From Pannonibacter carbonis (GTDB lineage Bacteria > Pseudomonadota > Alphaproteobacteria > Rhizobiales > Stappiaceae), in contig NZ_PUDR01000010.1 in the NCBI RefSeq assembly GCF_003012935.1, forward strand, positions 1 through 64,000: a stretch of 64,000 nt of DNA. Direction: 5' to 3'. The position numbers and the translations under genes were made by a program. Positions 14,314 to 32,042 of this stretch are shown one piece after another (within the stretch, counting starts at the first letter, position 1; the number at the start of each line of letters is the position of its first letter). The notes under the pieces were generated by a model. The model worked only from the letters and a program-made list of their open reading frames with translations. It did no database searches and was not told the DNA's origin.

Positions 14314-14770
14314 TTCAGGCTTATCGGGGGGTATCCGACCTTATGCCGGAATGCGGAACACGAGCCGAAATGTATAGCTGAGGATCTCGCAGCCTTTTGT
14401 CATCTATCGCCGGGTTTGCCTCCGGAGTGTCGGTGTGGCTGATGCTATGGTGCACCTTGTCTCCGCCGAAAACCGCATAGACCGTCAGACGCTAGTGAGC
14501 GTCTGACGGTCTATTTTTCGCTTAACATGCTGAGAAAGCTAGAAAACGCCTGCCGGTAGGTCCATTTGGGGCCTGATATTGTAATGGGGCGCCCTCCGGT
14601 CAATTTTGACCGATTTGGCGGGCGCGGATGCCGTCATCAAAGCGCTGAAATCAAAAGACAAGTTATACAGGACCGTGGGCCGTGGCGGTTGACGCTGTGA
14701 TTGCGGTCATTATCCCCATCCGGCAGCGCACGTTTGCCGCCGAATGAAAGGATTTCTGTCCGGTGTAGCC
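14314..14770. other. Intergenic region between convergent guaA and the antiporter gene
   Basis: Holds the strong terminator at 14478-14518. No open frame or RNA gene could be supported in the remainder. Confidence 0.5.
14478..14518 (+). terminator. Strong Rho-independent terminator after guaA
   Basis: A perfect 16-bp inverted repeat (TAGACCGTCAGACGCT and its complement) with a 4-nt loop is followed directly by TTTTT. It ends transcription from guaA 165 bp after the stop. On the minus strand a shorter TTTT follows the stem after TGCGG, so it may also work weakly for the facing antiporter gene. Confidence 0.92.
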
Positions 14771-16042
14771 TTAGCCGTTGCCCTGCTGGATCGCGAGCGG
14801 CCGGGCTGCCGGCGCGCCGGCTTCTACGGGTACCAGATCTTCGGTCTTGCCGCGGATGTTGCGGTAGCGGGAGAGCAGGGGGGAGACGACCGGCATCGTC
14901 AGCATGGTCGAGCCGACGGCCATCAGTAGCAGGGCGGTGAAGGTCGTCGAGGTGATGATCTCTTTGTCGAGCAGGATGTTGGCGAAGATGATCATGATCA
15001 GGGCTTTGGTCTGGAGCAGCCAGCCTATGATCGACGCTTCGCCCGGTTCCCAGCGCAGCAGCCGGCCGGCGATCTGCACGCCGATCAGCTTGCCGGAGAC
15101 GGAGGCGACGAGCAGGAGCCCTGCGGCGGCCAGCACGCCGACGCCGCCCATGTCCCAGCTCGTTCGCAGGCCGGTCGACAGGAAGAACACCGGCATCACC
15201 GTCATCAGGACCGTCCCTCGGAAGGCGTCCATGTGCTCCAGCTTGTACCAGCGGCTGTCCAGCACGGCGCCGGAGAGGAAGGCACGGACCATGTAATGCA
15301 GCCCGGCCCAGTTGGCCGCAAGGCCGCAGGCAATCAGCCAGATCAGCCCGAGGATCCAGCGGTCCCGCTCTCCGGACGCGGCAATAATCCTGCGGGCGAG
15401 GAGGGCGGCGGGGATGAAGACGAGCAGGAAGCCGGCCTGTCGCGTTACCCGCTCCCAGTCGAGCAGGATCAAGGCCAGAACGGCCCAGATGGCCACGTCA
15501 TCAAGGCTGGCATACCTGAGGATGCGCTGGCCAAGGTTCGAGCGCAGGATGTCCATGTTCTCCATGAACAGGACCAGGATCGGCAGCGCGGTCACGGCAC
15601 AGGCCATTCCGATGCCGAGCAGCACCTGCCAGTAGGCTCCGCCGGGTCCGATCCAGCCGTCCGTGGCCAGCAGCATGGCGGCAGCCCCGGCCCCAAGCCC
15701 CAGCGGAACGATGAGCGCGAGCAAGGCGACTGTGCCTGTTTCCCTCCGCTTTGCCCAGGCTTCGTGCAAGTCGAGTTCGATACCAGCAATCCAGATGAAC
15801 ATCATCACAGCCCACCAGGCGATGCCGTTGAGGGCGGTGATGACCTTGTCCGTGAAGACCAGCGTGTAGACCTCCGGCAGTGCCGCGCCCAGAACGCCGG
15901 GCCCGAGCAGGATGCCGCCGACGATCTGCACCACGACCAGCGGCGCCCAGCTGCGCTGCCCGAGCAGGCGCCAGGCCAGATAGGGCAGGGTGAAGATCAC
16001 CAGCAGGGCCATGAGAAACAGTTCGGTGATCGGGATCTGCAT
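14771..16042 (-). CDS. CPA2-type cation:proton antiporter (KefB/NapA-like membrane domain)
   Basis: The 423-residue protein is almost entirely hydrophobic with about 11-12 predicted membrane segments, beginning with IPITELFLMALLVIF. Family features include VQIVGGILLGPGVLG in helix 2 and YASLDDVAIWAVLAL, which carries the ion-binding acidic pair seen in electrogenic CPA2 exchangers (DD). It should exchange Na+ or K+ for H+ across the inner membrane. The C-terminal TrkA-N/RCK regulatory domain of KefB/KefC is absent, so regulation would differ. It precedes nothing obvious in an operon: the azoreductase ends 82 bp upstream on the same strand, so read-through from the cluster is possible. Confidence 0.85.
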   Translation of the reverse strand: MQIPITELFLMALLVIFTLPYLAWRLLGQRSWAPLVVVQIVGGILLGPGVLGAALPEVYTLVFTDKVITALNGIAWWAVMMFIWIAGIELDLHEAWAKRRETGTVALLALIVPLGLGAGAAAMLLATDGWIGPGGAYWQVLLGIGMACAVTALPILVLFMENMDILRSNLGQRILRYASLDDVAIWAVLALILLDWERVTRQAGFLLVFIPAALLARRIIAASGERDRWILGLIWLIACGLAANWAGLHYMVRAFLSGAVLDSRWYKLEHMDAFRGTVLMTVMPVFFLSTGLRTSWDMGGVGVLAAAGLLLVASVSGKLIGVQIAGRLLRWEPGEASIIGWLLQTKALIMIIFANILLDKEIITSTTFTALLLMAVGSTMLTMPVVSPLLSRYRNIRGKTEDLVPVEAGAPAARPLAIQQGNG

Positions 16043-16124
16043 GTCTGACTCCGGGCAGGGAAGCGCGATGCCGGGTATCCCCCGGCATCCGAATTGCGGG
16101 ACGAACTGTCTGTCGACCTGCGGC

Positions 16125-16751
16125 CTACCAGCTCGGGCTCAGCGCAGCCAACCGGGCGCGGGCGGAAGCTAGCGAAGCTGCCGCAGCCTCCGGGCCACCC
16201 CACATGTTGCCGGCCGAGACGGCCTCCGACTGGGTGACGCCCATGAAGCCGAAGATCTGCCGCAGATACGGCGTCAGGTGATCGAAGGGCTCAGTTGGAG
16301 TGCCGGGCTGGTACTCGCCCGCGCTGGACCAGACGATCATCAGCTTCTTGTCGGCCGACAGGAGCGGTCCGAAGCCGGTGGCCGGGTCGAAGGAGAAGGT
16401 CTTGCCGACACGGATGATGAGATCGACATAGGACTTCAGCGTCCAGGGCAGGCCGAAATTGAACATCGGGGTGGCGATGACGATGTGGCTCGCCGCATGC
16501 AGGTCGGCGATGGCCTGATCCGAGGCAGCGAGGCGCTGGACCTGATCCGGCGTGCGATTCGTCTCCGGCGTCATGTTGGCGGCGATCCAGGCCTCGTCCG
16601 GCCCTGCGATCACATCCCGGCCCAGGGCACGCTGGCGCAGGTCGGCGTCCGGATTTGCCTTGTGCCAGTCGGCAATGAACCCGTCAGCTAGGGCGGCGCT
16701 GGTTGAATCGACGCGGGGTGAAAAGCTCAAGGAGAGCAGAGTCTTCTTCAT
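16125..16751 (-). CDS. azoR: FMN-dependent NADH-azoreductase (flavodoxin-fold quinone reductase)
   Basis: The 208-residue protein has the AzoR flavodoxin-like fold: N-terminal FMN phosphate-binding region LLSLSFSPRVDSTSAALAD, the active-site loop TPMFNFGLPWTLKSYVDLIIR, and the isoalloxazine-contacting WSSAGEY. AzoR enzymes reduce quinones and azo compounds by two electrons with NADH. The ATG at 16751 overlaps the amidase stop (ATGA), so it is the last gene of the tightly coupled operon; a longer in-frame reading upstream is just amidase sequence. In this context it may detoxify quinone by-products or supply reduced flavin to the halogenase; both roles are inference. Confidence 0.88.
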   Translation of the reverse strand: MKKTLLSLSFSPRVDSTSAALADGFIADWHKANPDADLRQRALGRDVIAGPDEAWIAANMTPETNRTPDQVQRLAASDQAIADLHAASHIVIATPMFNFGLPWTLKSYVDLIIRVGKTFSFDPATGFGPLLSADKKLMIVWSSAGEYQPGTPTEPFDHLTPYLRQIFGFMGVTQSEAVSAGNMWGGPEAAAASLASARARLAALSPSW

Positions 16752-18262
16752 CGAACTGTCCTGTCTTGGGGGAAGATTTCCGTCCGCGCGAGGGCAAGGG
16801 CGGCAGACACGGCAAGGTGGTCGGCACCCGGGCCCGCGACGATCTGGACGGCACGCGGCAAGCCCTCCGGCCCGAGGAGAACCGGGGCGATGGTGGCGGG
16901 GTTGCCGAGTACGTTGAACACGGCGGTTGCGCCGATGTTGAAGGGATGGCGGAAGGCGTGGCCATGGTGCGGCGCAGGTCCTGGCACCGGGGGGCATAGC
17001 AGCAGCGCATTTCCGGCAAGCATATCGGCCAGCTCGTCTGAGAGAGCCTGACCCTGGTCGCGCCAGCGCCGCCAGAGCCTGGGGCCGGTTGGATCAAGCC
17101 TTGCACTCCAGGCCAGCAGCAGCGCGGCAGTGGTGTGCTCGCCGCGGCCAGTCAAATGGCGTATGGATTGGCGGAGAAGCGGCAGACGAGTGCCGTCACC
17201 AACCAGCTGTTCCATTGTTACGTCAGCGGCACAATGCAGCGTGCCCATCCAGATCCAGAAGGCGCCCTTGAGCAGATCCGTTCGCACAGTCTGCAAACGC
17301 GCGCCCGCCGATTGCAGGTGACTTGCGGCCCGCTCGACCGCTGCAACCTGCGCCGGGTCCGTCCGCTCGCTGCCGGCTATGGAGGGCGCGGGCAACACAA
17401 AGACGGTGCATCCTTGCAGCTGGGCCGGGGTGGGCCGTGGCAAGTCGGAGGGAAGGGGAGCCTCCAGGCCCGGATGGATCCCGTCCGGACCTGCCATCAC
17501 CGACAGCAGCGGCCAGAGGTCTGCCGCCTCGCGGCACATTGGTCCGGGGGCAAAGAAGCGGGCCAGGGGCGCGGCAGCCGTATCGGGGCCCCGGTCCAGC
17601 GGGACATGCCCCGTGAGCGGAACCATTCCGGCCGTTGGCTTGTGCGCGTAGAGGCCGCAATAGGCGGCCGGGATGCGCACCGAGCCGCCGCCATCCGTGC
17701 CGACGGCAACGGTCACCGCGCCTGCGGCGACCAGCGCGGCATCACCGCCCGAGCTGCCGCCGGGGGTGCGGGACTTGTCCATGGGGTGACGGGCGCGTCC
17801 GGTGATGCGGTTCACCGTTTCCGGCCAGAGCGCCATTTCGGCCATGCTGCCAACACCGGCGATAACAGCACCAGCTGACCGGAGGCGCTGTACGACCGTG
17901 CCGTCCCGTTCAGCGATCCGGTCGCGGTGACGGGCGGCGCCCATCATCCACGGAGCGCCGGCAACCTTCAGGCCTTCCTTGACCGTGACCGGCAACCCAA
18001 GCAACGGCTGGCTGACCAGCGCTTCTGGGCCAAGCGCCCGGGCCATCCTGTCGGCGGCCCGGGCCGCGCGGCGGGCCTGATCCGGCAGCAGTCCAGCCAA
18101 GGCACCGAACCGGCGCCCGGCGGAGGACAGGCGCTGCAGTGCCTGTTCCGTCAGTTCGCTGGCTGACACTTCCTGGAGGGCGACCGCGACCGCAAGCGGT
18201 GCGGCCGCCCCCCTCTGAGCTGCGGGAGGCAGCAAGGATGCTGGCTGGTTGGCTGAAGTCAT
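16748..18262 (-). CDS. Amidase-signature family hydrolase
   Basis: The 504-residue protein has the full Ser-cisSer-Lys triad of the amidase signature family: Lys95 in PVTVKEGL, cis-Ser170 in TPGGSSGG and nucleophile Ser194 in GTDGGGSVRIP, with the family's 24-residue Ser-Ser spacing. It hydrolyses or transfers acyl groups at amide bonds; the substrate cannot be read from sequence. It overlaps both neighbours by 4 nt (halogenase before, azoreductase after). Beside an N-acyl amino acid synthase it could remove or exchange the acyl group of the product, or act as a maturation step. It is not GatA, since gatB and gatC are absent. Confidence 0.85.
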   Translation of the reverse strand: MTSANQPASLLPPAAQRGAAAPLAVAVALQEVSASELTEQALQRLSSAGRRFGALAGLLPDQARRAARAADRMARALGPEALVSQPLLGLPVTVKEGLKVAGAPWMMGAARHRDRIAERDGTVVQRLRSAGAVIAGVGSMAEMALWPETVNRITGRARHPMDKSRTPGGSSGGDAALVAAGAVTVAVGTDGGGSVRIPAAYCGLYAHKPTAGMVPLTGHVPLDRGPDTAAAPLARFFAPGPMCREAADLWPLLSVMAGPDGIHPGLEAPLPSDLPRPTPAQLQGCTVFVLPAPSIAGSERTDPAQVAAVERAASHLQSAGARLQTVRTDLLKGAFWIWMGTLHCAADVTMEQLVGDGTRLPLLRQSIRHLTGRGEHTTAALLLAWSARLDPTGPRLWRRWRDQGQALSDELADMLAGNALLLCPPVPGPAPHHGHAFRHPFNIGATAVFNVLGNPATIAPVLLGPEGLPRAVQIVAGPGADHLAVSAALALARTEIFPQDRTVR

Positions 18263-20094
18263 GCTGCAGCGTCCGCCGTGGGCTTGCGCATCAGGTCCGG
18301 GGAATGGGCAGGGGACTTTGCCGGAACGGCATCGTCCGCCGCCAGCAAAGGCGGAAGCTGCCGGGCCCGCTCAGCGGCCTGCCGGCGCTGGACGAGCCGC
18401 GACTGGGCCATGCCGATGTGCTTGTTCGGCGCAAAGAGAAAGGCGTGGGTCGGCGAGAACGGGCTCTGGTCGGCAGGCTTGCGGGAAGCAGCCCGCTCAT
18501 AGGTCCAGGGAACGAGGCCGATCAGGCCCGATCGCAGCAGATCGCCGCCGGCAAGCAGCGTCTGTCCGATCGCGAGCAACCAATGCTGCGGCTTGCCGAG
18601 CGGGGCCAGCAGGGCCAGTGCCTTCATCCGCAAATAGGCGCGCTTGCGGAAATAGCGGCTGATGAGGCGGCCACGGGGAATGTCATCCGGCCGGTAGTAG
18701 CTGAAAGGCACCGTTGTCTCGTAGAGCGCCGGCGCCCGGCGGATCAGCTCCTGCGGGTCCATGGTCATGGCGAGGGCGTCGAGCAGCTTCGGGAACGGAT
18801 AGACCGCAGGCTGCATGCCGCGCTTGTAGCGGGGCAGCAGCATCGCGACCTGTCTGGCGACACCGGCGTTCAGAAAGGCGCCGCTCATGTAGTTCGGCAC
18901 CACGAGGTGGAAATAGCCCATGTTGGCGACGATCAGCGTCCAGGCCATTTTCACCGGGTCATTCATGACCTCGTACCAGTGGCTCCACTGGTCCTGCAGG
19001 GCGAGCTGGGCCCGCAGGTGGCCTTCCAGCGCCTCGACATAGCAGGGGGACAGCATCCCGCCACGCGCCTTGCGGATCATGCCGGTGATTTGCGGGATCT
19101 GATGCGCCAGATAGGCAATGCCGGCGCTGTTGGCCGGGTCGAAGGTGAAGCCGGCGTCTCCCAGCAGGAACCAGCGTCCATTGCGGTCGTAGTAGCTGCT
19201 GGCTTCGTACATGTAGTTGAAGTAGCGGCTGTCATCGAGTTTGCGGCCGCTCAGGATCAGCGCCTTCAGCTGCGGATGGTCGCGCTCCAGCACCTCGCAG
19301 AGGCGCTCGAAGCCCATGCGCTTCTCGCCCATGACCTCCGGCCGGTAGGTGATGCCGAAGCTCACCATGTCCTCGCCGGTGTCGCTGCGCATCGGGATGA
19401 TCCAGATCCAGTAGCCCTCGCCGTAGAAGTGGTGGGTCACGTAATAGGACTCGAAGCAGTGTTGTTTCAGCTTGGCCAGCCGCAACCCGTCAAGAATGCG
19501 CCGGTCGAAGCCCTGCAGGCGGAACCAGTAGCTGCAGCGCTGGTAGGGCGGGTCCTGGTGCAGGCCGAACTGCTTGGTGAGGACGCGCATGCGTCCCGAG
19601 CAGTCGATGACATGATCGGCTTCGATCTGCCGGCTTGAGCCATCCGCAAGCTGCAGGTTGACCTGTTGCGGCGCGCCGGGCTGGTCCGACAGATCGACAC
19701 CGGTGACGCGGCCGGTGACACGGGTCACCAGCGGGTCGATCCGGGCATCGAGTTCGGCGTCGAAGCTGTGGCGGTTGAGGTTGTAGGAGGGCAGGCGGAT
19801 GATGCCGGGGGCCTCGTGCTGGATGTAGTCCGGTGCATCCGGATCTTCGCCGGGGGGCAGGCGGAAGTAATAGGTGAGGCCATACTTGTGCAGGTGGTCT
19901 TCCTCGAGATGTTCCCCGAGCCCAAGTGCCTTCATGAACTGGGCCGTCACCTCGACGGTGGATTCGCCCACAACCGGCAATCCCTCAGCTTCCGGGTCAA
20001 TCACCGTGATTTCCGCGTCGGCCATATCGCGCGCGAGGTACAGGGCCGCCATCTTGCCGGCGAGGCCGCGGCCGATGATCGCGATACGGGTCAT
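18259..20094 (-). CDS. Flavin-dependent halogenase (tryptophan-halogenase family)
   Basis: This 611-residue protein begins with a FAD-binding GxGxxG (8-13, IIGRGLAG), then the family box GEST (43-46), a lysine at 70 (DHLHKYG) aligning with the catalytic Lys that holds hypohalous acid or haloamine, and WxWxIP at 229-234 (WIWIIP), the motif separating halogenases from monooxygenases. A second FAD-contact region is WFLLGDAGFTFDPANSAG. All hallmarks are present, so it should halogenate an electron-rich, probably aromatic, substrate using FADH2, O2 and halide. The C-terminal ~130 residues are basic and family-variable. Start at 20094 (MTRIAIIG) overlaps the upstream oxidase stop by 4 nt. No dedicated flavin reductase is seen except possibly the azoreductase. 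Confidence 0.8.
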   Translation of the reverse strand: MTRIAIIGRGLAGKMAALYLARDMADAEITVIDPEAEGLPVVGESTVEVTAQFMKALGLGEHLEEDHLHKYGLTYYFRLPPGEDPDAPDYIQHEAPGIIRLPSYNLNRHSFDAELDARIDPLVTRVTGRVTGVDLSDQPGAPQQVNLQLADGSSRQIEADHVIDCSGRMRVLTKQFGLHQDPPYQRCSYWFRLQGFDRRILDGLRLAKLKQHCFESYYVTHHFYGEGYWIWIIPMRSDTGEDMVSFGITYRPEVMGEKRMGFERLCEVLERDHPQLKALILSGRKLDDSRYFNYMYEASSYYDRNGRWFLLGDAGFTFDPANSAGIAYLAHQIPQITGMIRKARGGMLSPCYVEALEGHLRAQLALQDQWSHWYEVMNDPVKMAWTLIVANMGYFHLVVPNYMSGAFLNAGVARQVAMLLPRYKRGMQPAVYPFPKLLDALAMTMDPQELIRRAPALYETTVPFSYYRPDDIPRGRLISRYFRKRAYLRMKALALLAPLGKPQHWLLAIGQTLLAGGDLLRSGLIGLVPWTYERAASRKPADQSPFSPTHAFLFAPNKHIGMAQSRLVQRRQAAERARQLPPLLAADDAVPAKSPAHSPDLMRKPTADAAA

Positions 20095-21701
20095 GCGAAA
20101 GTCTCCTGCAGAAGGGGGGCAACGGCATCGGTTGCGGCCCGGCGGCGGTAGCGCCCCGGCGAGATGAGGCCGTTCGGGTCGAGCGCGCTCTGGACCCTCT
20201 CGGCGAGCTGCCAGTAGGCGTCGTTGCCGGCCGTGGCCTCGTCCATGAGGCCGCTGTGGAACCGGTATGGGGGAAACCCGAGACGGCGCCCCTCGGCTAT
20301 GAGCGCGCGCAGGCATGCCAGCGCCCTGTCGCTGTTGTTCCGGTCGCGCGGGAACAAGAGCGGCACCGTGCTGTCAAAGGCCGAAACGGACAGGGTGGAG
20401 AAGGTGATTGGCGCGGCAAAGCCATGCGCGCCGCAGACCCTTGCGACCATGTCGATGTAGCGCCGGGCCGCGCGGCCCTCGATCGGCACGATCGGGGCGT
20501 ACCAGAGCAGACCGCAGCCGTCGCGGGCCGGATCCCGTCCGCTGTCTGGCATCGCCTCTGGCGCGCCGCCATAGGCAAGCGCCAGGGCAAATTCGCCCGG
20601 GTGGCCGGCCAGCATGCGATAGGCGGACCTGACAGGGGCGACGAGCGGGGACAGCGACCGCCCGATGAAGGGCAGACGGGCGAGCGTTTCGGCCAGACGC
20701 AGACGCTGGCTGTTGACGAAGGCCAGCCGCGCGGCAACGGGCTTCAGCGCCCGGCGCAACACCTTGCGGCCAGCCCGGACGACGTCTTTGTCGCCGTAGA
20801 CAACGCCGGTTCCGATCCAGGGCGCGCCTTTCAGGGCTTGGTCGCCAGCCAGGGCGCCGACCCGGGCCGCGTTCATGAGATTAATGCCACCGATGGTGAG
20901 ACCGCTGCGGGTGAGGAGCCCGCGCATGGCAGCGATGGTGCGTTCCAGATCCGCGTCATCCTTGAGCCAGAACACGAACATTTCGACGGCTGCCGGACGC
21001 GGCATCAGTTGCAACGTCACGCTGGTCACCACCGCGCCGCCATTCTGGCTGAACAGTCCGTCGAGATAGGGCCCGCTGCCCCATCGGTATCCGGTGGGTC
21101 TGGTCTGGTTCGGGGAGACGCTGAGGAAGGGCGAGCGATAGAGCGACCCGTCGGCAAGAACGGCGGTCAGGCCCAGCACGGCCTGAAAATGGTCGGTAAC
21201 CGGTGTCATGCCGTAGCCGCGTTCCAGCGCGTTGCCGACGAGGCTGCAGTCCGGTCCCGCGCCGGTGGTCGGCACCATAAACTCTGCGCCTCGCCCGGCC
21301 AGATAGGCCTCCAGCTGGCCCTGGGTGACGCCGGGCTCGACGGTGATCACGCCGAGGTCGGGATCGAAGGCGAGAATGCGCGTCATGGAGCTGAGGTCGA
21401 ACAGCACTCGCGTTTCAGTGCTGGCCGGACGCGCGGTGCCATAGCCCCAGTTGTGCCCGCTCGAGACGGGGTGAATGCTGAGCTTTTCGCGGCGCGCAAG
21501 GTCGAGGGCCGCGCGGATCTCGTCCTCGGTCTCAAGCAGCAGCACGAGCGGCGCGGCGGCGGGGTGCGGCCATTCCAGCGTGTCGTGACCGCGCGCGGCG
21601 GACCTTTCGGTGCCGGCAAGGCGACCCGCTGTGCCGCTGGTCCGGACCGCCTCGCGGAACCGCTCCAACGCCAAATCGGCCCGAGGGGAGTGTTGCGTCA
21701 C
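20091..21701 (-). CDS. FAD-linked oxidase of the vanillyl-alcohol oxidase/4-cresol dehydrogenase type
   Basis: The 536-residue protein has an N-terminal PCMH-type FAD domain (about 50-240) with SSGHNWGYG, like the S/GKNxGYG loop of p-cresol methylhydroxylase and VAO, then GVITVEPGVTQGQL and GAGPDCSLVGNALERGYG. The C-terminal FAD-oxidase domain ends with LDPNGLISPGRY, the usual terminus of this family. Relatives oxidise para-substituted phenols at the benzylic carbon or cleave their ethers. By family, a para-alkylphenol such as a tyrosine-derived moiety is the most likely substrate; this is inference. It overlaps both the methyltransferase and halogenase genes by 4 nt. Confidence 0.82.
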   Translation of the reverse strand: MTQHSPRADLALERFREAVRTSGTAGRLAGTERSAARGHDTLEWPHPAAAPLVLLLETEDEIRAALDLARREKLSIHPVSSGHNWGYGTARPASTETRVLFDLSSMTRILAFDPDLGVITVEPGVTQGQLEAYLAGRGAEFMVPTTGAGPDCSLVGNALERGYGMTPVTDHFQAVLGLTAVLADGSLYRSPFLSVSPNQTRPTGYRWGSGPYLDGLFSQNGGAVVTSVTLQLMPRPAAVEMFVFWLKDDADLERTIAAMRGLLTRSGLTIGGINLMNAARVGALAGDQALKGAPWIGTGVVYGDKDVVRAGRKVLRRALKPVAARLAFVNSQRLRLAETLARLPFIGRSLSPLVAPVRSAYRMLAGHPGEFALALAYGGAPEAMPDSGRDPARDGCGLLWYAPIVPIEGRAARRYIDMVARVCGAHGFAAPITFSTLSVSAFDSTVPLLFPRDRNNSDRALACLRALIAEGRRLGFPPYRFHSGLMDEATAGNDAYWQLAERVQSALDPNGLISPGRYRRRAATDAVAPLLQETFA

Positions 21702-22567
21702 AACGGGAACCCCAGACCACCCAGCCTCAGGAACAGCCGCATCTGCGCCAGCTCGGCCCGGCGGTGCGCCGACAGCTGGCGCTGCGCACGCGTAAAGGCA
21801 TCGACCGCGCGCTGGCCCGCCGGACCGGGGGCCGGAGTGCAGGCCACCATCAGGAGCGGGGCAATCACGCTGCGGTGCAAGGCTACGTCCATGCGGCCGA
21901 GACGCAGGATCTCCTGGTCGAAGTCTTCCGGGGTGAAGGCGGCATAGAGGCTGGCGCGATAGTCCTGACTGAGCGCGGGCGTTTCCGTCCGGGCGACCTT
22001 GCCGACAAAGATCTCGACCGCCTGGCGGGAGCGCAGGCGTCCGAAGTCCATCAGGTAAAGCTGACCTGACGGCTTCAGCACCCGGACGATTGACGAAAAG
22101 CAGCGCGACAGGCTGACCCGGTCCGGCAGGTGGTGCAGTGCCATCGAGGACATGATGGCATCCGCCTCATGCAGCCCGAAATCGTCCAGGCGCGAGAAGT
22201 CGGCCTCAAGATAGGTGACATTGCGCAATCCAAGCAGCTCGGCCTGCTGACGCGCGGTCTCGAGCATCACGGGAGCGAGGTCAGTGCCAATGAAGGACAC
22301 CTCCGGATTCCAGCTGGCAATCAGGTTCAGAAGGCGCCCGGAGCCGCATCCCAGATCGATCACCTGATTGCCCGGTGCAACGCGGGCAGAGACTTGCAAC
22401 GCGTTGTAAAGGTAAGGCCCGAACAGCGCGCCGCCTTCCTCGCCACAGCTGGAGTAGTCCTCCACCGTCTGCACGCCGTTCATGACCAGCTCGGTCTCCG
22501 GCGTACGCGGCAATTGCTTGCGCGCCGTCATCTCATGGAACACGGCGCGGGGAAGGTCGAGTGTCAT
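21698..22567 (-). CDS. Class I SAM-dependent methyltransferase
   Basis: The 289-residue protein has SAM motif I VIDLGCGSGRLLNL (from about residue 69), the acidic ribose-binding residue in FIGTDLAPVM, motif II with LEADFSRLDDF, and SSMALHHLPD plus VLKPSGQLYLMDFGR. This is the general small-molecule or protein methyltransferase fold (Methyltransf_25/UbiE-like). Acceptor atom and substrate are unknown; in the cluster a phenol or carboxylate of the product is plausible. It overlaps the N-acyl synthase stop and the oxidase start by 4 nt each. A hydrophobic, Leu-rich C-terminus (MRLFLRLGGLGFPL) is noted. Confidence 0.85.
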   Translation of the reverse strand: MTLDLPRAVFHEMTARKQLPRTPETELVMNGVQTVEDYSSCGEEGGALFGPYLYNALQVSARVAPGNQVIDLGCGSGRLLNLIASWNPEVSFIGTDLAPVMLETARQQAELLGLRNVTYLEADFSRLDDFGLHEADAIMSSMALHHLPDRVSLSRCFSSIVRVLKPSGQLYLMDFGRLRSRQAVEIFVGKVARTETPALSQDYRASLYAAFTPEDFDQEILRLGRMDVALHRSVIAPLLMVACTPAPGPAGQRAVDAFTRAQRQLSAHRRAELAQMRLFLRLGGLGFPL

Positions 22568-23475
22568 GCGGCACCATCCATCGAGAGGGAGAGGGCAGGG
22601 AAATGGCGGCGCAGGGCAGCAGCCTCCTGGTCCTCCATGGCTGTCGGGCAGAGCGAGAACCGCCGCAGAAGGCCACTGACTGCGCGGTCTTCCAAGGGGC
22701 CTTCAACGGCGATCGGCCGGCGAAAATCCGGGTGGGCGGAAAAGTCGAAGCGGTCAGACGGGGCGCAGAAAAAATCATAGAAATCGAGCCCTGAGCGCTG
22801 ATCGACGATCTGTCCACGGTAGATGCGGTGGAAGCGCATCTGCACGCCCGGGATGTCGAGGCGCATTGGCAGCGAGGCGGCATCGCGCAGGCCGGCGTAG
22901 TTCTGGACCCGGCCAAGCGGGCGGAACAGCAGCAGGTTCGAGTAGAAGAACCGCGCCGAAGGATGCACCGCGATCATGAGGTCATCGACATGCCGCCAGT
23001 AGCGGGCCCAGCGGTACATCATGTTGTAAAGCATGATGGAAAGGCCGGTCCGGCGTTGATCAGAGCGCACTGCGAGCGCCCCCACTTCCGCGACCTTGCG
23101 GAACAGCTGGCGCACGCCGGCGACTTCCGGGCCGTGAACCTTCTCCATGGGCAGGCCCAGATCGGAATCCTCGATCAGCGAGAGCGTGGCGAGAATCTGG
23201 TCGCACCGCTTGGCGATGAAAGTTGTTGTCGACGGCAGGAGGCTGATGACCTGCAGCCGCATCTGACCTTCGGCGACGATGCCGCGGCGCACGTAGCTCT
23301 CCTCCAGCAGCGCGAAGGCGCCTGCCATTTCCTCTTCCGTCGAGACGATCTTGAAGGTCACGTCCGGAAAGGAGATGTCGCTGGCACGGATGCGTCGCAT
23401 GGCAAATGAACGCATAAGTTGTGGTGGCAACAATGCGAAGTGAGCATTCTTGAAGCGGCCGAGCCGGTCTTTCAT
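22564..23475 (-). CDS. FeeM-like N-acyl amino acid synthase (GNAT/LuxI-fold acyltransferase)
   Basis: The 303-residue protein resembles the catalytic core of FeeM, which makes N-acyl amino acids (N-acyl tyrosine in the founding case) from acyl-ACP and a free amino acid. Matching features are the entry strand FKIVSTEEEMAGAFALLEESYVR, the strand pair LPSTTTFIAKR..ILATLSLIEDSDLGLPM, and EVGALAV with Glu130 followed by a GNAT-like RRTGLSIMLYNMMYRWA helix. No acyl carrier protein is nearby, so the acyl donor would be the fatty-acid ACP pool. It overlaps the methyltransferase by 4 nt. Alternatives within the fold are exosortase-associated acyltransferases, but no exosortase genes are present. Confidence 0.7.
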   Translation of the reverse strand: MKDRLGRFKNAHFALLPPQLMRSFAMRRIRASDISFPDVTFKIVSTEEEMAGAFALLEESYVRRGIVAEGQMRLQVISLLPSTTTFIAKRCDQILATLSLIEDSDLGLPMEKVHGPEVAGVRQLFRKVAEVGALAVRSDQRRTGLSIMLYNMMYRWARYWRHVDDLMIAVHPSARFFYSNLLLFRPLGRVQNYAGLRDAASLPMRLDIPGVQMRFHRIYRGQIVDQRSGLDFYDFFCAPSDRFDFSAHPDFRRPIAVEGPLEDRAVSGLLRRFSLCPTAMEDQEAAALRRHFPALSLSMDGAA

Positions 23476-23491
23476 GGCTTGTCTCCAACCA

Positions 23492-24223
23492 CTATGTCAG
23501 CGAGCGCAGGGCCCGAGTGGTGATCCGCCGGGTCGGCGGACAATCGTCTGTTTCACGCAGCCAGCGCTGACACAGGCTCCTGACCCAGTCGGGCCGGTCC
23601 TTGGCCGCGTCGTTGAGCCAGTTGGCGACGGAGTCCTGCGCGTATTTCTCGCCCTCGCGTCGCATTGGCTCCAGAAGGGGCAAGCCCCTGGCCGGGTCCT
23701 CGCGCAGGGCTGGGATATGCTTGCACCAGACGCCACGCGGCCGCAGCGCCTCCACGGCAAAACGCCGGATGTTCTCGTCAGCGTCGCCCGTCCAGCCGGC
23801 GAGCGCGGCAATCGACAGGTCGAGATCGCGCACCAGACGCGGCCGAACCGCCAACCAGGCCCATTCGCGGACGCCGAAATGTCCGTCCGCGGCGAAAGGC
23901 CGGACCATGGTCAGCACATCCGCCACCGCCGAATCATCGTTGTGACGCGCAAGGCCAAACAGGGCCAACCCACGCACGGTGTCGCTGGCATGGTCTGTCC
24001 AGGTGGCAAGGACGTCAGCGCCGAAGTGGGCGAGCAACGCCTCGCCGCACAGGGCCATCCGCCGCGAGATGCCTTCTTTCTGAAAGGCCGGAAGTCCGGC
24101 ACCCGGTGCGAGCGTCTCCATCAGGTCAGTGAAGTCGATCGCCAGGATCTCGCCCAGGTTGGACGCGGCAATTTCGCCGCGCGACAGGGCCGCCTTGCGT
24201 TCGGCGGTGAGATCGCCCGCCAT
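23492..24223 (-). CDS. AlkC-like HEAT-repeat DNA alkylation repair protein
   Basis: The 243-residue protein is all-helical HEAT-like. Its C-terminal half matches the AlkC/AlkD superfamily of alkylpurine DNA glycosylases: REWAWLAVRPRL, NIRRFAVEALRPRGVW, KYAQDSVANWLNDAAKDRPDWV and a terminal TRRITTRALRSL. These enzymes excise N3/N7-alkylated purines without base flipping. I chose ATG 24223, one base after the preceding stop (TGAcATG), over a TTG at 24277 that overlaps that gene. It is the second gene of the operon. In yatakemycin-type clusters a HEAT glycosylase protects the producer, so self-protection is plausible here but unproven; such genes also occur alone. Confidence 0.72.
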   Translation of the reverse strand: MAGDLTAERKAALSRGEIAASNLGEILAIDFTDLMETLAPGAGLPAFQKEGISRRMALCGEALLAHFGADVLATWTDHASDTVRGLALFGLARHNDDSAVADVLTMVRPFAADGHFGVREWAWLAVRPRLVRDLDLSIAALAGWTGDADENIRRFAVEALRPRGVWCKHIPALREDPARGLPLLEPMRREGEKYAQDSVANWLNDAAKDRPDWVRSLCQRWLRETDDCPPTRRITTRALRSLT

Positions 24224-24224
24224 G

Positions 24225-25595
24225 TCAGGCGATCCAGGCGCCGGAGAGATCAAGGTCGGGACTGGCAACGCCGACAAGGCGCAGGCTGCCCTCCGACCAG
24301 GTGATCAGCGTGTCGCGGCCTGTGATGTGGATGTCGACTGGCCCAACGTCGAAGGCGAGCACGTCACGGCGCAGATCGAAGCCGAACAACAGGTCATGGC
24401 CACCATCGCCGGCGCTGTAGCGAAACACGTCGCGGCCGCTTCCGGCATAGTAAATGTCATCGCCGGCACCGCCATTGACCACATAACCGGCGTTGCCAAG
24501 AAAGACCGTGTCATTGCCGCTGCCTGTATCGATCACGCCGTAAACCTGCGCGCCATTATCGATGCGGATCACGTCATTGCCCGCCCCCGTCAGGATGTCG
24601 CCGAAGATCTTGCTTCCGCTTCTCACATGAATGCTGTCGTTGCTTGCATCCGTCGAGATCGCCGCGCCGCTGCCGCCCTTGACCACGCCAGAGACGTCGA
24701 TGGTTGTTGTGGCGAAATCGCCTGTGACGATAGTTCCGCCGGTAGCGCCTTCCAGAAGGCCTTTCTGGTGGATGATCGCCCGGCCGATCCCGTCGCTACC
24801 GTCGATGTCACGGACATGGATGCCGATGCCATCGGCGTCGATGCGTCCGGTGTTGCGGATCTCGATGGTGCTCTGGGCTTCGGCGCGGATGCCGTCGCCG
24901 CTCGTGCACAGCGCGCCGCTGTTGGTGACGGTGACATTGGAATTGGCAAGCGCGGCGACCCGGTCGCCGGAGAAGGTAAGATCGACGCGGGCGGTTGCGA
25001 GTATCCCGTCGACATGGTCACCGCCCGTCAGCACGGCTGCCCGGTTGGTGACGAAACTGTTTTCACGGCCCTCGACCATGATCGCACATTCGCCGCCACG
25101 GGCCTCGATCAGTCCGTTTGTCACCGAATGGGCATCACCGGAGGCTGCCTGCGTCCGCAGGGCAAATCCGCGCTCGGAAATCATCACGCCGGTCGCGGTG
25201 ACATAGGCGTCAGCCAGCGCCGAGAAGGCCCCGATGGTGCCGCCGCCCTCGATCTGGGCGCGAACGGAGCCGGCGAATGTGACCCGGGCATCGCCCAGGA
25301 TCGCGCCGGCGGCAATCAGCTCGTCGACCGGTCCGGCGGGCTGAGGCTCGCCGGGCGGCACCGGCACGGGCAGGGTGACGATCGCACCGCTGCGGGCAGT
25401 GCTGCTGATCGTTCCGGTGACATTGACGGTTGCGCTTTCAAGGGAGACCGCAGCAACCGCCAGGGCGGCCGGTGCATCAATCGTCATGCTGCCAAGGAAA
25501 TTCAGGGTGGTCGCGGTTTCGTAAGTTCCTCCAAAGCCCCACAAGAATGAATTCGCGTTATAGTTGAAAACGCCAGCGCGAGAAAAAGTCGCCAT
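24225..25595 (-). CDS. Secreted beta-solenoid protein with RTX-like calcium-binding repeats
   Basis: The 456-residue protein lacks a Sec signal. Residues about 30-300 are short Ala/Val/Thr/Gly-rich strands with recurring N-x-G-x-I/L turns (TNSGAL, RNTGRID), typical of a parallel beta-helix. Residues about 310-410 carry GGxGxDx-type nonapeptides (GAGNDVI, GSGNDTV, GGAGDDI, GSGRDVF) that bind calcium in type I-secreted proteins, and the C-terminus is hydrophobic as in T1SS substrates. AGGAATAGAGAG precedes the ATG. It is the first gene of the operon, one base ahead of the AlkC-like gene. Surface or extracellular location is likely; function is unknown and no T1SS transporter is in the window. 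Confidence 0.72.
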   Translation of the reverse strand: MATFSRAGVFNYNANSFLWGFGGTYETATTLNFLGSMTIDAPAALAVAAVSLESATVNVTGTISSTARSGAIVTLPVPVPPGEPQPAGPVDELIAAGAILGDARVTFAGSVRAQIEGGGTIGAFSALADAYVTATGVMISERGFALRTQAASGDAHSVTNGLIEARGGECAIMVEGRENSFVTNRAAVLTGGDHVDGILATARVDLTFSGDRVAALANSNVTVTNSGALCTSGDGIRAEAQSTIEIRNTGRIDADGIGIHVRDIDGSDGIGRAIIHQKGLLEGATGGTIVTGDFATTTIDVSGVVKGGSGAAISTDASNDSIHVRSGSKIFGDILTGAGNDVIRIDNGAQVYGVIDTGSGNDTVFLGNAGYVVNGGAGDDIYYAGSGRDVFRYSAGDGGHDLLFGFDLRRDVLAFDVGPVDIHITGRDTLITWSEGSLRLVGVASPDLDLSGAWIA

Positions 25596-26097
25596 GGAAC
25601 TCTCTATTCCTAAAAATAATGGTTACACTATCCATTCCTATTTCCGTTTCGTTAATGCGTCAAGCGGGCTTGAACGGGGAGTGTGCGGCGCAGTGGTCAT
25701 CCACCGCCATTAAAACAAACAAAACTATAACGATCATTTAGCGTAAAATCCAAATAACTAGAGGAAAATTAGAAATATAATTCTGCTAACGCTCTGTATT
25801 GAATGTAATTTTAAAGTATTATACTTTCTAATGTTGAAGATAATTTTACAGTGCTATTGTAATTTCTTTTCGATTGATAGGCTAAAGCGTGCGATTTACA
25901 CGAAATTTGATGTGATCAATATATAAGTATTTTATGTAACTGAAATTGGTGTTTATGTCGCAACGGAATGTAATTTCAGGTTGTGTATGGCTGATTGTTC
26001 GTCGATCCTTGATAAAATCGCCACTGCTGTTAGATGCCATTGGTAGCTGATAATGTCTGCATTCAGGTGTTTGCGTATATGGGAAGGGTAATACCCT
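25596..26097. promoter_or_regulatory. AT-rich divergent promoter region between the cluster and the Rrf2 gene
   Basis: This 502-bp spacer is strikingly AT-rich compared with the GC-rich genes on either side and carries no supported gene. Symmetric elements visible are a perfect palindrome AAAGTAT-T-ATACTTT at 25813-25827, TTACA-N7-TGTAA at 25846-25862, and an inverted pair CTGAAATT (25940-25947)/AATTTCAG (25972-25979). These are candidate operators for the adjacent Rrf2 regulator or another factor; AT-richness also suits binding by xenogeneic silencers. GGGAAGGG before 26098 is the Rrf2 ribosome-binding site. Confidence 0.6.
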
Positions 26098-26550
26098 ATG
26101 GTTGTAAAGGATGCTTTGACCGGAGGGGTTGATCAGCGCTTCTCTGTTGCCGTGCACGCGATGTGTGTCCTCAGTTTTCGCTCGCCTGATTTGTCCAACG
26201 CGGTCTTCGTTGGTGAAAATATTTCGGTCAATCCACTTATCGTGAAGCGGATCATCGGCTCGATGGTCAAGGCCGGTCTGGCAGAAGCTGTGCTGGGCGC
26301 GCGTGGTGGATATCGTCTCGCTCGTGCGGCGGACCAGGTGACGCTTTGGGACATCTATTATGCTGTCCAGGGGTCCGGTCCATTTCGCAAGCGTCACGGA
26401 ATGCCAGAATCAAATTGTGATGAGGGCCGTGCAATCGACCGTGTCGTCTTTGACCTCTACACCGATCTCGATCTTGTCGTCGAAACGAGACTGAAGCAGG
26501 TCACGCTGGCGCAGATCCTGCAATGCGCAATGAAGGGCGAGCGCGTGTAA
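26098..26550 (+). CDS. Rrf2-family transcriptional regulator
   Basis: The 150-residue protein has the Rrf2 winged helix: RFSVAVHAMCVLSF, recognition region SVNPLIVKRIIGSMVKAG, and the wing AVLGARGGYRLARAADQVTLWDIYYAV, which contains the family's GxxGGY signature. The C-terminal region has a single Cys in ESNCDEG instead of the three-Cys cluster of IscR/NsrR, so classic Fe-S ligation is unlikely, although thiol or other redox sensing cannot be excluded. It is divergent from the eight-gene operon and is the obvious candidate regulator of it and of itself. Confidence 0.88.
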   Translation: MVVKDALTGGVDQRFSVAVHAMCVLSFRSPDLSNAVFVGENISVNPLIVKRIIGSMVKAGLAEAVLGARGGYRLARAADQVTLWDIYYAVQGSGPFRKRHGMPESNCDEGRAIDRVVFDLYTDLDLVVETRLKQVTLAQILQCAMKGERV

Positions 26551-26803
26551 AGCCCTTTGCTTGATCGATGTTGCCTTACCTGGCTCCGAGGCTAGGGGCC
26601 TGTCTGGCCTTCGTCGTTGACAAGTTGTAGCTGAGCGTCAACGGCTGGTGGTGCCATAGTTTCCTTCCGCCAGACGAGCGCGAGTGACACCTTTGAGACC
26701 AATCGCAAGGGTGCCTTCAGACCACTTGGCTTTCCAGGCATTGTCTGGCAACGGATGCACATCGCACCATCAGTTCCGGCAGCGGGTTTGGTAGCCGGGA
26801 TTT

Positions 26804-28987
26804 CTAACCGGTTTTGCTGAGCAGCAAGGGCAGGGCGGAGAGCGGTATCGGACGTCCCAGCAGGAAGCCCTGCACCTGGGGGCAGCCGATGCTTCGCAGC
26901 AGGTCCAACTGGTCCTCGCGCTCAACGCCTTCCGCGATCACGATCATGCCGAGCGCCTTGCCGAGGTCGATCACACTCCGGAGGATCGCCTTCACCCGTT
27001 CATCCGGTGCGTTCGGATCGAAACGGGCGATGAACGTGCGGTCAAGCTTGATGATGTCGACCGGAACCCAGCTGAGATAGTCCAGCGATGAATAGCCCTT
27101 GCCGAAGTCGTCCAGCGCGACGCGGACGCCGAGATTGCGCCATTCGGTGAGACGCTGGATCGCGATCTGTTCGTTTTCCAGGAACACCGATTCCGTGATC
27201 TCCAGTTCCAGGCGGTGCGGCGACAGGCTCGTATGGGCCAAGGTCTCCACGATTTTCATGGAGAAGCGCGGATTGCAGACCTGAAGCGGTGACACATTGA
27301 CGGCAATCGACAGGTGTGCGGGCCAGGATTGTGCCTGCCGGCAGGCTGTGGCCAGAACCCATTCGCCAACCTGTTCTATCAGGCCTGCTTCTTCCAGAAG
27401 CGGAATGAACCGGCTTGGGGGGACGGGGCGGCCCTGGTCGTCACGCCAGCGCAGCAAGGCCTCGAAGCCGAGCAGTTCGCGGGTATGGGTTGAGAAACGC
27501 GGTTGATAGTGCAGTTCGAAGTTCTGCTCTGCAACCGCCGTCCGCAGTGCGTCGACCATGTTGCGCCGCTGTGTCAGCGCATCAAGCATGGCCGGGCGGA
27601 AAAAGGCATAGTCGCTTGTCTTCGGCCGCTGGCTCTTTGTCGCATACATGGCGACATCCGCATCGACCAGGACATCGCGTGTGCCGCTCTCCGGGATGCC
27701 CGCGCCGCCCGTCCCCGGTGACATCGCGATCCCGATGCTCGCCCCCATCCGGAAGATCCGTGCGCTGGTCTCGATTGGCTGGCCGATGGTTGCAATCAGC
27801 TTGCGCGCCAGCGAACTGAGCACCGGGCGGGCGGTCTGGTTCTGCAGGACGACGACAAACTCGTCGCCGCCAAGCCGCGCCACAACATTGTCCGTCCCGA
27901 CTGTCCCGGAAATGCGCTGCGCTACCACCCGCAACACCTGGTCGCCGGCATCGTGACCATATCCGTCATTGACGACCTTGAAATCATTGAGGTCGATCAG
28001 AAGGACACCAAAACCATCGACGGCGCCGGCCTCGATCGCTGCGGTGATCCCGGCGATATGTTCACGCAGAAAGGCACGGTTGTGGAGGCCGGTGAGGGCA
28101 TCACGGAAAACCAGTTCCTTCAGTTCACGTTCGCGCTCACGCAACTGGGCCGTGGCCTGCCACTGCTCGGTCACATCAATCCGGCGCGACATGGTCGCCC
28201 CGGTCTTCGACTTGACCCTGGAATAAATATAAACCCGGCCACCGAGCGGCTGGATTTCCCGGTGGCTGTCGACAAGCCGGTCGGCGAGCCGGGCCCGCTC
28301 CGCGAGATAGGCGTCCGGGTCACTGCGGGCGAGGGGATCGTCGATTACGCCTGCTTCGAGGTCGAGCTTGTAGAGGTCGAGGTGTCGGGCGCCAAGCAGC
28401 CCCTGGCGGTCCGGATAATACGGAAAGACGCGGTGATAGGCCGGGTTGCTGAAGACGACTCCATCTTCCTCGTCGTAGAAGGAAATTGCCTCTTCACTCT
28501 GCTCCAGCGCTTCCAGAACCAGCTGTGACAGCTTGCGGCGCTGCAGCGTCAGGAGGCTGCTGCTTGTCAGCCTTGCCAGTTGATCGACGACCGTCTTGCC
28601 CTCTGCCGCGAGAGTTGCGGTTTCAAGCACGAAACCGCCGACGGGCTGATTGTTGCTGGTCAGCCTGTGAAAGACCAACGGGTGGCTGCCGGGCCGGGCA
28701 GGGGACACAGGCGGCGGGCCATCGGCGCCGGCAAGCCAGTCCCTGATCGCTTCAACCGGGAATTCTTCCATCCCGGTTGCAAAGGCTCGCCGAACCGTGC
28801 GCCTGTTCAGCGCAGCGACATAGCCGGACAGGTGTGTCGGCCCCAGCATTCGCTCGCACGCGGCATGGAGTGCGGTGAATATCCCCGCCTCATCCAGCGC
28901 CTGCTCCATGCTGATGGCGACATCCACAAAGTCTGCCGCGTAGTCATTGGATCGGGTCATAACAAAATTCAGGGAATCCGGTGGCAT
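26804..28987 (-). CDS. PAS-GGDEF-EAL cyclic-di-GMP turnover protein
   Basis: The 727-residue protein has an N-terminal region of unclear type (1-160), a PAS-like domain (about 165-280; SEEAISFYDEEDGVVFSNPAY), a coiled linker (QLRERERELKELVFRDALTG), a GGDEF domain with intact RLGGDEF, and an EAL domain with GFEALLRW, DDFGKGYSSLDYL and the acidic residues of ITESVF. Both catalytic signatures are complete, so it may make and degrade c-di-GMP, one activity usually dominating. No membrane segment is visible, so it should be cytosolic. I chose ATG 28987; the frame continues to a GTG at 29128 with no better ribosome-binding site, so the start is uncertain. Confidence 0.9.
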   Translation of the reverse strand: MPPDSLNFVMTRSNDYAADFVDVAISMEQALDEAGIFTALHAACERMLGPTHLSGYVAALNRRTVRRAFATGMEEFPVEAIRDWLAGADGPPPVSPARPGSHPLVFHRLTSNNQPVGGFVLETATLAAEGKTVVDQLARLTSSSLLTLQRRKLSQLVLEALEQSEEAISFYDEEDGVVFSNPAYHRVFPYYPDRQGLLGARHLDLYKLDLEAGVIDDPLARSDPDAYLAERARLADRLVDSHREIQPLGGRVYIYSRVKSKTGATMSRRIDVTEQWQATAQLRERERELKELVFRDALTGLHNRAFLREHIAGITAAIEAGAVDGFGVLLIDLNDFKVVNDGYGHDAGDQVLRVVAQRISGTVGTDNVVARLGGDEFVVVLQNQTARPVLSSLARKLIATIGQPIETSARIFRMGASIGIAMSPGTGGAGIPESGTRDVLVDADVAMYATKSQRPKTSDYAFFRPAMLDALTQRRNMVDALRTAVAEQNFELHYQPRFSTHTRELLGFEALLRWRDDQGRPVPPSRFIPLLEEAGLIEQVGEWVLATACRQAQSWPAHLSIAVNVSPLQVCNPRFSMKIVETLAHTSLSPHRLELEITESVFLENEQIAIQRLTEWRNLGVRVALDDFGKGYSSLDYLSWVPVDIIKLDRTFIARFDPNAPDERVKAILRSVIDLGKALGMIVIAEGVEREDQLDLLRSIGCPQVQGFLLGRPIPLSALPLLLSKTG

Positions 28988-29413
28988 TCGTTCCAAAAGA
29001 TCGCAGACAAGGGGTAAATGTTCCACTTCTTTTGTGTGACGGTTTGGTGTCAGCTGCTTGCGCATCTGCCCTGTCGGGTCCCTTCCCAAGCGGAATACAG
29101 TGCTTGGTAGATGAAACCCCGATTGCACTTATGGCGGATTTTTCAAGGAACTCCCTCGGAATGGATGATCCGGCCCGTTGCGGCAGGGCTCTCCGACCCC
29201 GCCGCAGAACTATGCGCCGCACATTCGCCAGCGGTTGCATCGGCTCAGGATCATGGATCGGCGTGGCTGGTTCAACCCGCGCTCAGGCCATCCAACCCGC
29301 GCGAGGCAAAAGAGCGGCTGGCGGCCTGACAAGTCCATTCGGTCTCGGTCGCCGCGCGGCCAACACGGGGCGATATCAATCGCCATTCACGAGCCTGTGC
29401 AAGCTCCGGCTGG

Positions 29414-29598
29414 ACCGCGATTTCTGAACTGATAAGCTGCCAAGGTGGAACAGGTCGCGCTCGGAGTGCGTTCCGGCTGGATTGACGGAGGGCTGGTTAT
29501 GCTGCAACCTATGCGTATATCAGTTCGGAAATCGCGGTCTGGTCGATAACACGCTCTAGACAGCACCAAATAAGGCGGCTCCTCCGGGGGCCGCTTTT
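29414..29598 (+). ncRNA. Candidate small RNA: long hairpin plus orphan terminator
   Basis: Arms 29414-29435 and 29518-29539 are complementary over 22 bases with one mismatch that becomes a G-U pair in RNA, closing an 82-nt loop. Thirty-five bases later lies an intrinsic terminator in plus orientation, although the nearest plus-strand gene upstream ends at 26550. Together this fits a structured non-coding transcript of about 200 nt. No known RNA family is recognised and no promoter was identified, so this is a candidate only; a decayed mobile element with inverted ends is the main alternative. Confidence 0.35.
29575..29598 (+). terminator. Intrinsic terminator without an upstream plus-strand gene
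   Basis: GCGGCTCC and GGGGCCGC form an 8-bp stem (one G-U) around a TCCG tetraloop and are followed by TTTT. It sits 72 bp before the next plus-strand gene start. Confidence 0.65.
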
Positions 29599-29670
29599 CA
29601 TTTGCGCGGTTCCCATTTCGGTTCGGGGTATGCTGAATGCTGCGGAAAGCAGGCAGGGGAGGCATCGGGC

Positions 29671-30396: not shown

Positions 30397-30436
30397 GGGG
30401 AGATGCGTGAGCCGCCCGAGCCGGTGTGCCCCTGCT

Positions 30437-31345: not shown

Positions 31346-31354
31346 GAAACAGAT

Positions 31355-31374: not shown

Positions 31375-31436
31375 GATTGGAGTGATTTTTATCCAGCATC
31401 TAGCCTTCGGTCATCACAGACAAGCAGGAGGCAGAC

Positions 31437-32039: not shown

Positions 32040-32042
32040 GCC

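Follow-up and report, generated by a model that had tools for sequence, protein, structure and literature searches.

A mobile, megasynthase-free gene cluster in Pannonibacter carbonis that may make a halogenated N-acyl aromatic and protect its host

Introduction

FeeM enzymes use acyl-ACP (acyl carrier protein) to make N-acyl amino acids. An N-acyl amino acid synthase (NAS) is the entry enzyme of the clusters for N-acyl (dehydro)tyrosines (thalassotalic acids, kyonggic acids and stieleriacines; tyz of M. tuberculosis), and this is the feature they share with the gene cluster described here, which lies in a 64,000-nucleotide stretch of the genome of Pannonibacter carbonis (assembly GCF_003012935.1, contig NZ_PUDR01000010.1, positions 1 to 64,000; ‘the window’). 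In Stieleria, a passage of one study places a tailoring methyltransferase near the NAS gene (PMC12479983). Where the N-acyl dehydrotyrosine clusters carry ThiF and nitroreductase genes, however, the cluster in the window encodes a vanillyl-alcohol oxidase (VAO)-type flavoenzyme, a halogenase-like enzyme, an amidase and an AlkC-type protein. A ThiF/nitroreductase N-acyl tyrosine pathway was considered and set aside, as neither domain was found among the ten scanned proteins or in the antiporter. On Nitratidesulfovibrio plasmids (H5-H7), a FeeM-like match falls inside a gene annotated as a ThiF family adenylyltransferase, echoing the ThiF/NAS pairing.

The cluster also resembles genotoxin clusters, in which a DNA-alkylation repair protein sits beside tailoring enzymes (YtkR2 for yatakemycin, C10R5 for CC-1065, AlkZ for azinomycin, and TxnU/LldU). 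YtkR2 and C10R5 are described as AlkD homologues (PMC8626424, PMC8934636, PMC9040887) and confer resistance (PMC8626424). Genotoxin clusters use proteins of the AlkD or AlkZ type, whereas here the protein is of the AlkC type, the operon is a small one of the N-acyl amino acid type, and a genotoxic product is presumed. Among the matches listed in open-licence literature we found no described cluster with this gene set, and the one listed paper that names both a halogenase and an NAS does so in separate places.

We propose, with a probability of about 0.5, that the cluster is a mobile unit, free of polyketide synthase (PKS), non-ribosomal peptide synthetase (NRPS) and carrier protein, that makes an electrophilic halogenated N-acyl aromatic and brings its own protection.

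Results and discussion

A tightly coupled operon with a conserved core

Positions 16125-25595 contain eight genes, all read from the minus strand. An earlier note on this DNA had described eight genes joined by five overlaps, a 1-nt gap and a 16-nt gap, and recomputed spacing agrees: 1 nt separates the RTX-repeat and HEAT-repeat genes, 16 nt separate the HEAT-repeat and FeeM genes, and 4-nt overlaps join FeeM/methyltransferase, methyltransferase/VAO, VAO/halogenase, halogenase/amidase and amidase/azoreductase. Family calls were made by Pfam and NCBIfam scans and PDB sequence searches, which bear out the families named earlier. The previously claimed lack of megasynthases also holds, as none of the operon proteins matched a PKS, NRPS or carrier-protein domain in Pfam at E 0.001. 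Of the limits first drawn, 16125-26550, the right end stands (26550 is the end of the Rrf2 gene), while the left end was too short and excluded the antiporter gene. We include this gene because it lies inside an 11-kb block common to the window and locus L001 and is found downstream of azoR in five of six loci. The unit thus consists of nine genes and one accessory gene, antiporter and Rrf2 regulator included:

14771..16042, minus strand: CPA2-family cation:proton antiporter, 423 amino acids, Na_H_Exchanger domain only (PF00999, 3.8e-25)
16125..16751, minus strand: AzoR-type FMN (flavin mononucleotide)-dependent NAD(P)H:quinone/azo reductase, 208 amino acids (Flavodoxin_2, 1.6e-38; PDB azoreductases to 6.7e-29)
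16748..18262, minus strand: amidase-signature hydrolase, 504 amino acids (PF01425, 5.9e-70)
18259..20094, minus strand: flavin-dependent halogenase-like enzyme, 611 amino acids (PF04820, Trp_halogenase, 5.3e-17)
20091..21701, minus strand: VAO/4-cresol-dehydrogenase-type FAD (flavin adenine dinucleotide) enzyme, 536 amino acids, GTG start (FAD_binding_4; PDB 9fge, 9.1e-49)
21698..22567, minus strand: class I S-adenosylmethionine methyltransferase, 289 amino acids (Methyltransf_25, 1.6e-19)
22564..23475, minus strand: FeeM-like N-acyl amino acid synthase, 303 amino acids (PF21926, 7.2e-35)
23492..24223, minus strand: short AlkC-type HEAT-repeat protein, 243 amino acids, putative alkylpurine DNA glycosylase (HEAT_2; profile match to AlkC 5vhv, 2.9e-25)
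24225..25595, minus strand: protein with RTX-like repeats near the C-terminus, 456 amino acids, accessory (no Pfam match)
26098..26550, plus strand: divergent Rrf2-family regulator, 150 amino acids, perhaps thiol-based (PF02082, 7.1e-24)
14653..25671, no strand: 11-kb block common to the window and Rhizobium sp. FKY42, 91.7% DNA identity (blastn)

For the HEAT-repeat gene, the ATG at 24223, 1 base past the stop of the RTX-repeat gene, is a possible start; the open reading frame (ORF) tool gave an upstream TTG.

Six loci hold the cluster: the window, L014 (in genome G001), L001, L002, L005 and L013. The holders are two of five genomes of the window’s genus, Rhizobium sp. FKY42 (L001), Defluviimonas denitrificans, a metagenome-assembled genome (MAG) contig and a plasmid of Methylorubrum populi. 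L006, L007, L011 and L012, being fragments of the window or of G001, are left out of this count. A seven-gene core, AlkC-FeeM-methyltransferase-VAO-halogenase-amidase-AzoR, has the same order at all six; in L005 the contig start truncates the AlkC gene. The five 4-nt overlaps recur at four loci (window, L014, L001 and L013); in L002 and L005 the order is the same and the short spacings differ. Since the order persists in L005, where the seven core proteins are 45-66% identical to those of the window, it is not a matter of chance. The ‘Frankiales’ origin given for L005 is doubtful, as its GC content is 0.562 versus 0.682 around that genome’s guaA.

In relatives that hold the cluster, the core genes are thus together and not scattered, so that the co-occurrence check proposed in the earlier note comes out in its favour; the exception is a pair of halogenase relatives, L003 and L004. 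These came from a scan of genome contigs in which five loci had a relative of the halogenase: L001, L002 and L005, which have the cluster, and two loci of the Rhodobacteraceae MAG SP126, which do not. The SP126 proteins (L003 10001-11752 and L004 10001-11923) are 59% and 54% identical, respectively, and the L004 copy sits ahead of a GMC oxidoreductase gene.

The cluster is rare. In the plasmid collection, 3 of 72,556 records had a halogenase match at 1e-20; a single match exceeded 60% identity, and the collection added one cluster, that of M. populi. Among sampled family genomes, 2 of 87 had a match at 1e-30. At 1e-60 the counts in samples were 1 of 397 for the order and 1 of 385 for the class, the window’s own genome each time. 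FeeM relatives at 0.001 came to 5/61, three of these at only 28-33% identity.

Horizontal movement and selection

The cluster has moved horizontally. Nine cluster genes show a synonymous divergence of 0.12-0.52 between the window and FKY42, versus 1.01 for guaA, the single gene for which this yardstick (dS) was taken; the one other housekeeping gene compared, metG, encodes proteins that are 71% identical. Outside the block at 14653-25671, L001 has no match to the window longer than 120 bp. In FKY42, two Tn3 transposase genes and a resolvase gene lie directly downstream of the cluster, and the opposite side ends with the contig, which stops 2.4 kb upstream. In M. populi P-1M the cluster is carried by pMPPM04, a plasmid of 41 kb that has virB and relaxase genes and is mobilizable. 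The gene order there is Rrf2, AlkC, FeeM, methyltransferase, VAO, halogenase, amidase, reductase, antiporter, and an IS1380 transposase gene adjoins Rrf2. Within the window’s genus, the distance between cluster and guaA is about 260 kb in G001 and 0.5 kb in the window. Between the window and G001, the ratio of nonsynonymous to synonymous divergence (dN/dS) is 0.07-0.28 for the ten genes of the unit, which are therefore under purifying selection.

Candidate biosynthetic enzymes

The FeeM-like synthase matches PF21926 at 120.5 bits against a cut-off of 27 and the PDB entry for FeeM, 2g0b, at 4.9e-8. It would transfer a fatty acyl group from acyl-ACP onto an aromatic amino acid, most likely tyrosine. 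The methyltransferase, 51-98% identical to those of the five other loci, might then methylate the ring or the carboxylate.

The VAO-type enzyme finds PDB 9fge at 9.1e-49 and 4-cresol dehydrogenase at 3.2e-46. It resembles 4-cresol dehydrogenase and vanillyl-alcohol oxidase in overall homology and in its phenolate columns: in all six orthologues, NWGYG supplies a Tyr and PYR a Tyr-Arg pair that align with Tyr95 and Tyr473-Arg474 of the phenolate site of 4-cresol dehydrogenase (the chain index is off by one). The family’s Asp167 column holds Glu in the cluster enzyme. Such an enzyme could draw a hydride off the benzylic carbon of a para-alkylphenol, giving a para-quinone methide and from it a dehydro or hydroxylated side chain.

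The profile of the halogenase-like enzyme matches ChlB4, CmlS and PltA. GxGxxG, Lys70, WxWxIP and FDPxxSxG are present in all eight halogenase sequences, including the two from SP126 that lie outside the cluster, so that the enzyme is motif-complete, as had been claimed. The Lys70 column aligns with the Lys of ChlB4, PltA and CmlS; this is presumably the catalytic Lys. The enzyme would halogenate the ring. The amidase keeps VKEGL, GGSSGG and DGGGSVR at all six loci. Urethanases are the best group among its PDB matches, and the colibactin amidase ClbL (1.2e-31) and fatty acid amide hydrolase (2.2e-29) belong to the same amidase-signature family, at moderate similarity. It may cleave an amide, perhaps taking off the acyl group and so releasing or unmasking the product.

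The earlier scheme of a tyrosine-like substrate that is oxidised, halogenated and methylated is thus supported in part: the families and their coupling hold, and tyrosine as the substrate, halogenation, the order of the steps and the product are predictions.

An AlkC-type protein in the operon and in MarR-linked cassettes

Judged by its sequence, the HEAT-repeat gene encodes a short relative of AlkC DNA glycosylases, for which base excision is a putative activity; the earlier note had seen neither this relationship nor the mobility of the cluster. A profile of the six cluster orthologues (one partial) found AlkC (5vhv) in the PDB at 2.9e-25 and AlkD2 at 1.5e-5, and the orthologue on the M. populi plasmid is annotated ‘DNA alkylation repair protein’. 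The match stops at residue 233 of a 361-residue chain or 241 of a 369-residue one, so the C-terminal part of AlkC, which we take to be an Ig-like domain, is missing from the window protein. By our mapping of the numbering, the AlkC Glu156 column is Glu in the window (Glu158) and invariant in eight of eight aligned sequences. In a review, Glu121 and Glu156 are tied to AlkC function (PMC11514114).

All six orthologues match PF08713 at E up to 1. A PF08713 search of 21 genomes gave matches in 6, the window’s genome not among them, because the cluster protein falls under the model cut-off. The alkC-like gene lies ahead of feeM at all six cluster loci and has a dN/dS of 0.07 against G001; it is therefore no loose passenger.

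A tblastn search with the AlkC-type protein gave 27 records of the plasmid collection, eight with at least 80% coverage (M. populi and seven others). We examined six of these seven and left out H15, the second plasmid of the Klebsiella strain of H14; among the 20 of 27 records listed, H16-H27 match only part of the protein and were excluded. In all six examined records, the closest relatives outside the cluster in this collection, genes for MarR, AlkC and DUF6616 stand in a row. This was read from the gene table for Sphingopyxis, two Paracoccus and Klebsiella and from the ORF list for Aeromonas and Shinella, and Pfam confirmed MarR and DUF6616 in all six. The cassettes lie at about 6444-8130 of L038, L039, L040, L041, L042 and L043; the Aeromonas (4.9 Mb) and Shinella (4.6 Mb) records may be chromosomes despite their place in a plasmid collection. 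A recombinase and a Tn3 transposase gene directly follow the Klebsiella cassette, and several transposase genes lie near those of Paracoccus. The MarR-linked cassettes and nearby transposases suggest that this AlkC subfamily behaves as a mobile, regulated resistance gene. The examined cassette stretches of Sphingopyxis, Paracoccus, Klebsiella, Aeromonas and Shinella showed no pathway genes.

Candidate protective genes and the accessory gene

Because the proposed pathway would pass through electrophiles of the quinone-methide or quinone type, we propose protective roles for four genes. The AlkC-type glycosylase would excise adducted bases; the AzoR-type enzyme, whose gene is present at all six loci, could reduce quinones or supply reduced flavin to the halogenase; the antiporter might correct ion or pH stress; and Rrf2 might sense electrophiles by cysteine.

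The antiporter gene lies 82 nt downstream of azoR in the window and follows azoR at five of six loci, at 62-96% identity in L001, L013 and L014 and 24% in L005. The protein reaches 72 bits with TIGR00932, below the cut-off of 238, and had no PDB sequence match at 0.01. We rejected a Kef-type efflux pair of AzoR and antiporter, as KefF scored 20 against 210 bits and the antiporter has no regulatory domain.

The Rrf2 gene is found at four of six loci: the window, L014, L013 and L002, where it lies at the other end of the operon. Of the remaining two, L001 is limited by the end of its contig and L005 is truncated. Its protein matches the NCBIfam HypR model at 6.4e-12, below the cut-off. Iron-sulphur Rrf2 proteins hold a three-Cys cluster; here, two Cys are invariant in all four orthologues and a third is present in the window only, making a thiol-based sensor the more likely reading.

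The 456-residue first gene product has a weak NCBIfam RTX match (2.4e-4), far below the cut-off. Its gene opens the operon at two loci, is absent at L013 and lies outside the operon in L002; at L001 2366-3729 it is split over two frames, being broken or an assembly error. We therefore rejected it as a core gene or substrate; it is accessory and stands outside the conserved core.

Flanking sequence

A clean empty site was not found in the window’s genus, where the flanking sequences have been rearranged; G003 has guaA on one contig and the match to window 33175-41457 on another. Except for the cluster of G001, window 14313-33175 has no long match in the stretches of G001-G004 and the searches made. 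Near its right end lies a tRNA-Ser gene (32547-32636), itself conserved. A GGDEF gene at 26804-29128 was tried as a flank marker and dropped, as it gave merely partial domain matches in G001-G004. The 138 bp at 29470-29607 are 97% identical to one place in G002, with unmatched surroundings. Between metG and a TatD-like gene, 39582-39744 contains an intergenic element of ~150 bp that has dozens of matches on both strands in four genomes of the same genus and is thus an interspersed repeat.

Weighing the interpretation

Several observations count against a pathway to a halogenated, reactive N-acyl aromatic. The product and the enzyme activities are predictions from sequence, and the choice of substrate by a FeeM enzyme cannot be read from it, so that tyrosine is our presumption. 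The covalent-FAD column of the VAO-type enzyme, that of Tyr384 in 4-cresol dehydrogenase and usually Tyr or His in the family, holds neither; it is Asp in five of six orthologues and Asn in L013, and the chemistry may therefore differ. The earlier note’s view of an oxidase acting on para-phenols thus gained from the phenolate-site columns and overlooked this one. In NCBIfam the halogenase-like enzyme scores 52 bits with CmlS versus 42, 39 and 38 with the hydroxylating relatives GoxB, LodB and QhpG, a modest lead, so it could hydroxylate, and the relatives in L003 and L004 exist without the cluster. In the PDB, the amidase matches a generic amidase and urethanases better than it matches ClbL. 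The window HEAT protein scores 19.3 bits with PF08713 against a cut-off of 21; its AlkC Glu121 column is Trp, with a Glu (Glu120) three residues earlier that is invariant in eight of eight; and its relatives are also found without biosynthetic genes. At L002 a TauE-type gene replaces the antiporter. Lastly, the unit has no evident dedicated exporter and no flavin reductase besides AzoR.

The chief rival, which we consider unlikely, is a mobile detoxification or stress cassette in which Rrf2 senses a phenolic or electrophilic biocide. The enzymes would inactivate this biocide through N-acylation, methylation, oxidation and hydrolysis of an amide, and AlkC, AzoR and the antiporter would keep the damage low. 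In its favour, four cluster genes seem suited to protection, relatives of AlkC are found in cassettes linked to a regulator, and the Tn3 transposases beside the cluster in L001 and the mobilizable plasmid with IS1380 are settings in which resistance genes are often found. Part of one report adds that P-1M came from a household biofilm and that many Methylobacterium strains are chlorine tolerant (PMC4911468). A halogenase-type enzyme would be odd in such a cassette, however, FeeM enzymes as a family make N-acyl amino acids from acyl-ACP, and the tight coupling of FeeM, methyltransferase, VAO, halogenase and amidase suggests a single anabolic line. Rather improbable, in our judgement, is a non-genotoxic N-acyl (dehydro)tyrosine signal or antibiotic lipid of the thalassotalic acid, kyonggic acid or stieleriacine type, made with another oxidase and with AlkC as a passenger. 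The FeeM homology fits it, excerpts of one study report N-acyl tyrosines from at least three phyla (PMC12479983), and the VAO-type enzyme could conceivably stand in for the nitroreductase in 2,3-desaturation; the ThiF and nitroreductase genes proposed for such lipids were not found among the cluster proteins, though, and the position of AlkC ahead of feeM and its dN/dS speak against a passenger. We regard as very improbable that the halogenase-like enzyme is a hydroxylase or protein-modifying monooxygenase in a cluster that matures a cofactor or peptide. The weak matches to GoxB, LodB and QhpG would suit this, as would an RTX-repeat gene that comes first in the operon at two loci and lies at the same place in two frames at a third, but WxWxIP and the aligned Lys are present, halogenases outscore those relatives, and the RTX-repeat gene is missing from the M. 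populi plasmid and so is not a required substrate.

We therefore favour a pathway that makes an electrophilic, halogenated N-acyl aromatic and comes with its own protection. The sequences establish the gene families, their order, the mobility of the unit, purifying selection and the key active-site columns; the substrate, the order of steps, halogenation, the reactivity of the product and each protective role are predicted. The AlkC-type gene in the cluster hints that the product may damage DNA. A more specific version, tentative and on balance doubtful, is a plasmid- and transposon-associated, megasynthase-free pathway from an N-acylated tyrosine to a halogenated quinone-methide genotoxin that the amidase releases, with AlkC-type self-resistance, the same glycosylase type serving in MarR-AlkC-DUF6616 resistance cassettes of bacteria whose examined stretches showed no pathway genes.

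Implications

If the proposed reading is true, halogenated N-acyl aromatics would have a further biosynthetic route, compact and mobile, which cluster detection built on PKS and NRPS may overlook, and AlkC would join the types of self-resistance glycosylase. This would also point to an environmental gene pool resisting some DNA-damaging compound, and the three-gene MarR-AlkC-DUF6616 cassette would gain its first candidate target.

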